In this document: positions 22,410-23,878 of the stretch, one piece after another
Numbering within the stretch: the stretch's first letter is position 1
Layout: each line of letters opens with the position of its first letter
Assembly (NCBI GenBank): GCA_017502525.1
Contig: JAFVUV010000032.1
Span: 1 to 64,000, forward strand
Length of the DNA: 64,000 nt
DNA from: Clostridia bacterium
GTDB lineage: Bacteria > Bacillota > Clostridia > Christensenellales > Borkfalkiaceae
Reading direction: 5' to 3'
The notes under the pieces: generated by a model
The model's database searches: none
Told to the model about the DNA's origin: nothing
What the model saw: the letters and a program-made list of their open reading frames with translations, nothing else
Program-made: the position numbers and the translations under genes

Positions 22410-22539
22410 GTAAATACCTAAACTAAAAGGTGCGCCTGACAGCAAAGGGATTAATTGATTTAAGGAATTAGCAAGGCTAACGCCTTGATAAATCACGTCC
22501 CGCCTTGGCGCTTAATTTCGCCAGGGCGTTTCTTTTTTT
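22410..22539 (+). ncRNA. unclassified structured RNA or attenuated leader
   Basis: A stretch of about 130 bases between a consensus promoter and a perfect terminator has no reading frame but nested pairing: GGGA/TCCC (22447-22450 with 22498-22501), TGATTTA/TAAATCA (22456-22462 with 22489-22495) and CAAGGC-TAAC-GCCTTG (22472-22487). GCGCC at 22432-22436 can pair with GGCGC at 22507-22511 inside the terminator, which would open it. It could be a riboswitch-type leader for the ABC genes at 22859 or a free small RNA. I could not match it to TPP, SAM, cobalamin, THF, ZTP, guanidine or cyclic-di-GMP riboswitches. Confidence 0.6.
22501..22539 (+). terminator. terminator of the unassigned RNA
   Basis: CGCCTTGGCG (22501-22510) and CGCCAGGGCG (22519-22528) form a 10-bp stem with one G-U pair, followed by TTTCTTTTTTT. 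Confidence 0.92.
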
Positions 22540-22556
22540 AAGGCTTTATATACGGC

Positions 22557-22644
22557 GCAAGACTGCGTTTCTGCTTAGTATTTTGACTTCGATAACCAGA
22601 CGGTTAATCTCACCCAAAACACTTCGCGAGCCTTGTCTTGCTTG
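22557..22644. repeat. 88-bp direct repeat, copy 1
   Basis: The sequence from GCAAGACTGCG to CTTGCTTG recurs without a change at 22672-22759. The ends are inverted (GCAAGAC 22557-22563, GTCTTGC 22635-22641). Inside, AACC/GGTT (22594-22597, 22602-22605) and GTATTTTG/CAAAACAC (22578-22585, 22615-22622) can pair. The inner arm pairs better in minus-strand RNA. The 497-base gap 22362-22858 holds this, its twin and the RNA above. Confidence 0.95.
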
Positions 22645-22671
22645 TATCTAAACCCTTAAAATCAAATATTT

Positions 22672-22759
22672 GCAAGACTGCGTTTCTGCTTAGTATTTTG
22701 ACTTCGATAACCAGACGGTTAATCTCACCCAAAACACTTCGCGAGCCTTGTCTTGCTTG
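22672..22759. repeat. 88-bp direct repeat, copy 2
   Basis: An exact second copy starts 115 bases after the first, with the same terminal inverted heptamers (22672-22678, 22750-22756). Both copies are followed by a similar stretch containing AACCCTTAAA, so the duplicated unit is about 115 bases with a diverged tail. Confidence 0.95.
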
Positions 22760-22858
22760 AGTTTAACCCTTAAATTTAAGCACTAACATTACGCTCTATC
22801 TCGCGCGCTATTAGTTTAAAATATTGCGTATTAAATATTACGTACAAAAGGAGTTTTT

Positions 22859-23878
22859 ATGAAAAAGTTATTAACGCTATTGCTTTCGGTTGTTTGTTGC
22901 TTTTCAGGGATTAGTTTTTCTGCTTGCAACAATACGCAAAAAGATAAAGTCGGCATAAAATATTACGCCGAAGGGTCGAGTATAGTTAGTGCTATGCTTT
23001 CAGACGTAGAAACTATCGGTTTAGTTCCAGAGCCTGCTGCATCTAATTTGACAAACAAAATGGCTTTGCGCGGTAAAACGGTTTATAAACTTGATTTGCA
23101 AGAGCTTTATGATGCTCAAGATAAAGCGTATCCGCAAGCGGTAATGATGGTTAAAAGTAGCGTGCTTGCAACGTTTCCGAATATAATCGACGTTTTGAGC
23201 GGTATAGATAATAACGTAACGTGGCTAAAACAAGATGGCAACGCAACGCAAGCAGTTGACGCAATTAAAACGAAATTTGAAGCGTCCACGTTGGTTGCTG
23301 GCACGTTATCCGCTTCGGCTATAGATGGGTGTAAAATTTATTGGCAAGGCGTAAATCAGGCAAAAGAACAAGTCAAAAGTTATATAAACGATATAATGGC
23401 AATTGAAAGTGGTTCGGCAAAAACAGTAAATGACGATTTCTTTTATAGTGGTACGGCAAGTGGAAACTGCGAAAAGCAAACTTTGACCGTTTATGCTCCC
23501 GATGGTGCGCCAGCGCTTGCGATAGCAAAGTTTATTAAAGATAATACTAAACTTGTCGACACCCTTGACGTGTCTTACAACGTTATAAAGGCAAATACTA
23601 TACCAGCGTTATATAAAGGCGGGACGGCAGACGTATTCATTATGCCCGTTAACCTTGCTACAAAATTTTACAATACTGATAATAACGTGGGCGACCCTTA
23701 CGTTATGGTTTCAGTTGTAACGCACGGTAATTTTTATATTATGAGTACGGAGCCTTTAACTATAAACGATTTGAAAAATAAAAAGATAGCCGTTCCAAAC
23801 CCTAATGCTGTTCCCGATTGGACTTTTCGTGCAGTTTTAGAAAAACACGGATTAAAATACTACAATATAGAAGGATGA
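22859..23878 (+). CDS. ABC transporter substrate-binding lipoprotein (SsuA/NMT1-like)
   Basis: The 339-residue protein has a lipoprotein signal with lipobox FSAC (C23), so it should be tethered outside the membrane. The body resembles binding proteins of the nitrate/sulfonate/taurine and NMT1-like group: KGGTADVFIMPVNLATKFY and LTINDLKNKKIAVPNPNAVPDWTFRAVLEKHGL. The ligand cannot be read; relatives bind sulfonates, pyrimidine precursors or other small molecules. AAAGGAG precedes the start. It is translated with the permease at 23880, one base on. Confidence 0.85.
   Translation: MKKLLTLLLSVVCCFSGISFSACNNTQKDKVGIKYYAEGSSIVSAMLSDVETIGLVPEPAASNLTNKMALRGKTVYKLDLQELYDAQDKAYPQAVMMVKSSVLATFPNIIDVLSGIDNNVTWLKQDGNATQAVDAIKTKFEASTLVAGTLSASAIDGCKIYWQGVNQAKEQVKSYINDIMAIESGSAKTVNDDFFYSGTASGNCEKQTLTVYAPDGAPALAIAKFIKDNTKLVDTLDVSYNVIKANTIPALYKGGTADVFIMPVNLATKFYNTDNNVGDPYVMVSVVTHGNFYIMSTEPLTINDLKNKKIAVPNPNAVPDWTFRAVLEKHGLKYYNIEG

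Follow-up and report, generated by a model that had tools for sequence, protein, structure and literature searches.

Dispersed hairpin repeats at gene ends in Clostridia and other Bacillota, a probably mobile family

The window analysed here, a 64,000-nucleotide stretch of a Clostridia bacterium genome, contains two copies of an imperfect palindrome of about 122–130 bp, and the two 88-bp copies described in an earlier note on this DNA are its conserved middle. That observation was right but too narrow. On balance, we read the window repeat as two copies of a non-autonomous, ERIC-like or MITE-like mobile hairpin, moved in trans and inserted and retained at gene ends, a reading that we consider probable and hold with some reserve.

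Extent and structure of the hairpin

Comparison within the window bears out two fully identical 88-bp cores, at 22557–22644 and 22672–22759. The reported distance of 115 bases is correct as start-to-start spacing but not as a gap, which is 27 nt. The reported terminal GCAAGAC/GTCTTGC is likewise present, with GCAAGAC at positions 1–7 of the core, but the right arm lies at positions 79–85 and is followed by TTG, and stem pairing runs about 20 nt further outward on each side. The full hairpin of copy 1 occupies 22538–22659 on the minus strand (the model strand), within a covariance-model match at 22538–22667 (136.6 bits) whose final 8 nt are unpaired in the model. Its outer left arm (TTAAGGCTTTATATACGGC, 22538–22556) is complementary to its outer right arm (..GTATCTAAACCCTTAA, 22641–22659), and its core holds the GCAAGAC/GTCTTGC arms and the conserved internal loops; arms and cores are given here with no strand assigned. 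Copy 2, matched on the minus strand at 22656–22780 (104 bits), shares the core of copy 1 and has different, poorly paired outer arms. Local duplication or recombination may be the reason for the identical cores, and the combination of identical core and different arms fits recombination between copies.

The docking (left) end of copy 1, at 22538, lies within the T-tract of a terminator-like hairpin recognised in the sequence directly to its left (22500–22539, plus strand), and the same order of leader terminator and element follows the orthologous leader in two relatives (G016 and G023). In at least seven species the leader and its hairpin together (22414–22539, with conserved AATACCTAAACTAAAAGGTGCGCCTGAYAGCAAAGGG) precede a gene for an ABC substrate-binding protein. 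This leader looks like an attenuator or riboswitch; a search of its orthologues against Rfam returned only two PyrR-site matches, both sub-threshold (31 bits, cut-off 54). Orthologues of the ABC gene have elements upstream in several species, and in one of them (L040:3072–3502, on G023:C30) these form an array of alternating full units and right-half remnants, the latter about 41 nt long. As a separate observation, the substrate-binding protein encoded at 22859–23878 has its halves in swapped order compared with genus relatives (query 203–335 before 26–197), as if circularly permuted.

Alignment of 65 distinct copies with their flanks was used to define the extent of the element, and shows outward pairing of the form TTAAGGG-TTATAAAC ... 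GTTTCTAA-CCCTTAA. Arm complementarity mostly stays at 0.6–1.0 as far as the last modelled pair, then falls to about 0.55 at the next position and to 0.18–0.30 one beyond; all three data sets show this sharp drop, so the length of the hairpin is defined, at about 122–130 bp, with fixed internal loops and a closing arm of about 12 bp that ends sharply. The hairpin is real, and the covariation that the earlier note had proposed to look for is present: across 46 diverse copies, pairing holds for 95.3% of cells (74% when shuffled), 32 of 37 pairs have changed on both sides, double-change cells number 323 versus 84 shuffled, and the covariation score reaches 0.548, compared with 0.157 after shuffling and no more than 0.138 after sliding. 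The internal loops are strongly conserved, reading AAGGCTCG ... CAGNAACG and GGGTGAGAT ... ATCGAAGTC on the minus strand; class II elements, which prevail in other genera, have GGGAGYKTAC ... GTAMRTGACC at the tip.

The minus strand of the window core folds at -32.2 kcal/mol (z -4.97) and the plus strand at -24.2 kcal/mol (z -3.77), with none of 200 shuffles as good in either case, and since the minus strand folds better the asymmetry is real. The class II consensus behaves in the same way (-36.7 minus, -21.8 plus). Counts of G-U against A-C, taken over pairs picked by Watson-Crick content only so that neither strand is favoured, are 96:52 and 22:11 in favour of G-U. Outright mismatches, 316 in class I, exceed the G-U count, which is fewer G-U than would be expected of an ordinary structured RNA, and a single-stranded DNA form is therefore possible. 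The element encodes no protein; nothing supports a coding role for the open frame that had been pointed out on the minus strand, and the sequence covaries as a hairpin.

Distribution and docking at stop codons and in operons

The family is spread across Clostridia and other Bacillota, thinner at class and phylum level. The covariance model finds it in 29 of 44 genomes of the genus, at up to 47 copies each, with no match in 15. Matches at order level occur in 69 of 297 genomes with the class I model and in 77 of 200 genomes (34 of 102 genera) with the class II model, followed by 33 of 291 genomes in the class and 31 of 398 in the phylum. These ranks are the kinship labels of the search tool, and the counts are lower bounds, searches over 40 genomes having had strict filters; E-values are rough (short calibrations), gene calls are simple ORFs, and metagenome-assembled genomes (MAGs) may be chimeric or incomplete. 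Named matches comprise Clostridia MAGs, ruminant guts being the source of many, as well as Candidatus Coproplasma. In the window genome, sequence search located further core copies at C14:7301 and C36:30853, and the covariance model finds seven family copies in total; with up to 47 in a genus genome, the dispersed copies here and in relatives exclude the alternative raised earlier, that neither other copies nor conservation exist.

No covariance model of Rfam release 15 matches over the element (matches fall only on neighbouring RNAs), so that a known Rfam family was rejected, as was carriage on phage, viral contigs or plasmids, none of which gave a match over the element. A survey of stem-loop families discarded those in rRNA precursors (PMC2267715). 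A limited search of the openly licensed literature, by name and sequence, returned no description of the family, which is apparently undescribed so far.

Gene context was available for 161 copies. Of these, 147 have a codirectional upstream gene and 126 a codirectional downstream gene, and in 98 the upstream stop codon falls within -16 to +15 of the left boundary of the element, with a single case of the mirror arrangement. In a second, overlapping set of copies the upstream proteins fall into 70 clusters, many of which we take, from reading the sequences, to be housekeeping proteins (QueA, MnmE, EF-G, ribosomal proteins, GroEL, phosphotransacetylase, triosephosphate isomerase). TAA is somewhat enriched at docked stops (87 of 98 versus 404 of 543, Fisher p 0.0017), in part because the end of the element itself supplies TAA. 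Docked and mirror cases number 18 and 1 in the order set, 13 and 0 in the class set (four of the 13 being spurious ORFs antisense within 23S) and, more weakly, 8 and 3 in the phylum set; the copies are related and the events not independent, which weakens formal statistics. Window copy 1 is preceded by no stop codon and adjoins the leader T-tract instead. Replication direction was considered as the cause of orientation and is a poor fit, given the 126 downstream against 147 upstream codirectional genes and the opposite orientation in rRNA operons.

All 17 copies within rRNA and tRNA operons (several of them from copies of one operon) have the model strand as sense strand, the reverse of the orientation at protein genes, and in about half of the 17 the 3′ end of the element lies 0–10 nt before the mature 5′ end of 23S, 5S or tRNA. 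At one locus (L403, G486:C15) three 5S rRNA genes follow one another; two of them have an element immediately in front, and a further element precedes 23S. A candidate autonomous element of about 3.2 kb with a copy at each end (G468, G530) proved to be the 23S rRNA gene, the two copies being those that precede 23S and 5S. The earlier suggestion that any RNA acts from the minus strand gains from these operon copies, as from the better fold and the excess of G-U over A-C. The mRNAs of protein genes carry the opposite, worse-folding strand. This opposition between mRNAs and stable RNAs argues against one simple RNA function, and would be accounted for if orientation were set by the target sequence.

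An RNA module with a host function, kept at gene ends and ahead of 23S, 5S and tRNAs to signal processing, protection or termination, and spread by duplication and recombination, not transposition, would agree with internal loops conserved from genus to phylum, with placement in transcribed spacers and with transcription of the better-folding strand in rRNA and tRNA operons. We judge it unlikely, though worth keeping in view: a single RNA role cannot explain both orientations, and copy number ranges from 0 to 47 within a genus in which 15 of 44 genomes have no match. The related proposal of a duplicated RNA gene is not supported in that form, as the flanks have no shared conserved promoter-like sequence and copies lie at unrelated gene ends.

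Mobility and the closing arms

Units identical throughout, including both arms, are found at unrelated genes (L190 and L161; two within L133; L207 and L201). The QueA-tgt junction exists within one genus in occupied, clean-empty and truncated-remnant versions, and in the closest pairs of species one site is filled and the other is not (G064 empty and G067 occupied; G004 empty and G024 occupied) at 84–85% QueA identity. Because identical units sit at unrelated genes and an orthologous site is occupied, empty or remnant across species, we conclude that the element moves. The pairs of identical units show no consistent target-site duplication, and the species compared are too diverged for exact empty sites. 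MITE-like features are otherwise evident: the element is short, non-coding, multi-copy and dispersed, with inverted terminal repeats, a long stem-loop, and empty and occupied sites. Presence at the same locus can also be wide and vertical, as at QueA in several genera, which could point to a function kept for the host and not to a selfish element. Some copies have shared cores with differing arms, and two others (L202:335–469 and L290:237–367) combine identical cores with stem halves that belong to different types and have lost their pairing; their sequences suggest recombination between copies.

The closing arms of about 12 bp vary between sites yet pair with each other. At protein genes the left arm can be coding, taking in the final codons of the host gene, in which case the right arm matches codons of that same gene; at QueA the arms vary by species, tracking the codons of each. 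Empty QueA orthologues keep a left-arm-like coding end, and the right-arm sequence is absent downstream. Recently moved units at other loci bring both arms along. Element subtypes at QueA have QueA-like 3′ ends of their own, with older ends displaced in head-to-tail arrays. Three such arrays (L375:1440–2010, L257:2440–2830, L259:80–330) show a separate QueA-like 3′ end (FGD..L* in frame) ahead of every unit, as though incoming units had replaced the gene end time and again and pushed the old end aside. Beyond the 12-bp arm, complementarity to the gene end is at background level for most copies and was rejected as a feature.

The arms may have been copied at insertion, used as a guide, or later adjusted by compensatory change. 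In the boldest version, the family would represent a new class of mobile DNA that locates gene ends through base pairing: an arm of about 12 nt copies or guides to the last codons, insertion restores the gene end, and the same machinery docks before rRNAs and tRNAs. We regard this as quite unlikely.

For the mobile-hairpin reading that we prefer, the following course of events is conceivable. An enzyme acting in trans would recognise the folded single strand (the window minus strand, as ssDNA or RNA) and insert the unit at gene ends, with purifying selection removing insertions elsewhere. Arms would be matched to each flank by copying or by later compensatory change, and tandem insertion with recombination between copies could yield identical cores with local arms, as in the window. 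Retained copies would sit in transcribed spacers and end up within mRNA 3′ regions and pre-rRNA, with possible effects on processing or stability. The family is a widespread structured repeat of Bacillota missing from Rfam, whose copies shape the build of mRNA 3′ regions and rRNA spacers in many gut Clostridia. It raises the question of what puts a hairpin on the stop codons of dozens of unrelated genes in one fixed orientation, and in the reverse one ahead of rRNAs and tRNAs; whatever enzyme does so would represent a new system for targeting gene ends.

Comparison with known systems

The attC sites of integrons are oriented imperfect palindromes at gene 3′ ends that fold in one strand, have variable arms and form tandem arrays, and the new family shares this geometry. 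A site of that type, a bottom-strand hairpin after the stop codon used by a tyrosine recombinase for gene-end insertion, is nevertheless improbable here. Upstream gene and element do not move together, the sequence common to copies starting at the stop codon; copies are scattered over both genome strands; the ends TTATAAAC/GTTTCTAA do not fit the R-box consensus RYYYAAC/GTTRRRY; and no integron integrase exceeds the cut-off in any of the 44 genus genomes.

REP and BIME repeats with their RAYT transposases are dispersed palindromes that fold in single strand and occur in clustered copies, with a GT(A/G)G head and alternating orientation in BIMEs (PMC2817692). The new units resemble them in dispersal to gene ends, single-strand folding and clustering, but are about 125 bp long and head-to-tail, with neither GT(A/G)G head nor inverted pairs. 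Of the earlier suggestion of a mobile or REP-like repeat, the dispersed, mobile, palindromic kind survives and the REP/RAYT system does not. Movement by a Y1 (RAYT) transposase, or of a retroelement by reverse transcriptase, is very improbable: with Pfam models, Y1_Tnp was found in 6 of 44 genus genomes and RVT_1 in 5, both absent from the high-copy genomes G061, G023, G010 and G007 and RVT_1 also from G003. For the genus this reading is largely refuted, and could be saved only by a diverged member that the Pfam models overlooked. As partners in this genus, RAYT, reverse transcriptase and integron integrase were rejected, none tracking the element, and searches with the Y1_Tnp, RVT_1 and IntI models found no related autonomous transposon. 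Chance local duplication, for which two identical copies side by side might speak, is rejected as practically negligible by the many dispersed relatives with compensatory changes.

The bcr1-type repeats of Bacillus cereus are likewise dispersed structured repeats of a Firmicute, to judge by description, and we know of no stop-codon docking rule for them. By description, too, the likeness to the ERIC (IRU, RU-1) elements of enterobacteria extends to size, shape and context: these are intergenic, non-autonomous imperfect palindromes of 127 bp with 7-bp terminal inverted repeats, co-transcribed with their neighbours, whose orientation matters for mRNA stability and for which TA ends and target duplication are listed (PMC2229807). 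Stop-codon docking, site-specific closing arms and pre-rRNA placement, as seen in the new family, are not in that review (PMC2229807). Because ERIC comes closest in kind, and REP/RAYT and attC fail on defining features, we place the family in a known kind of mobile repeat with an unusual docking rule.
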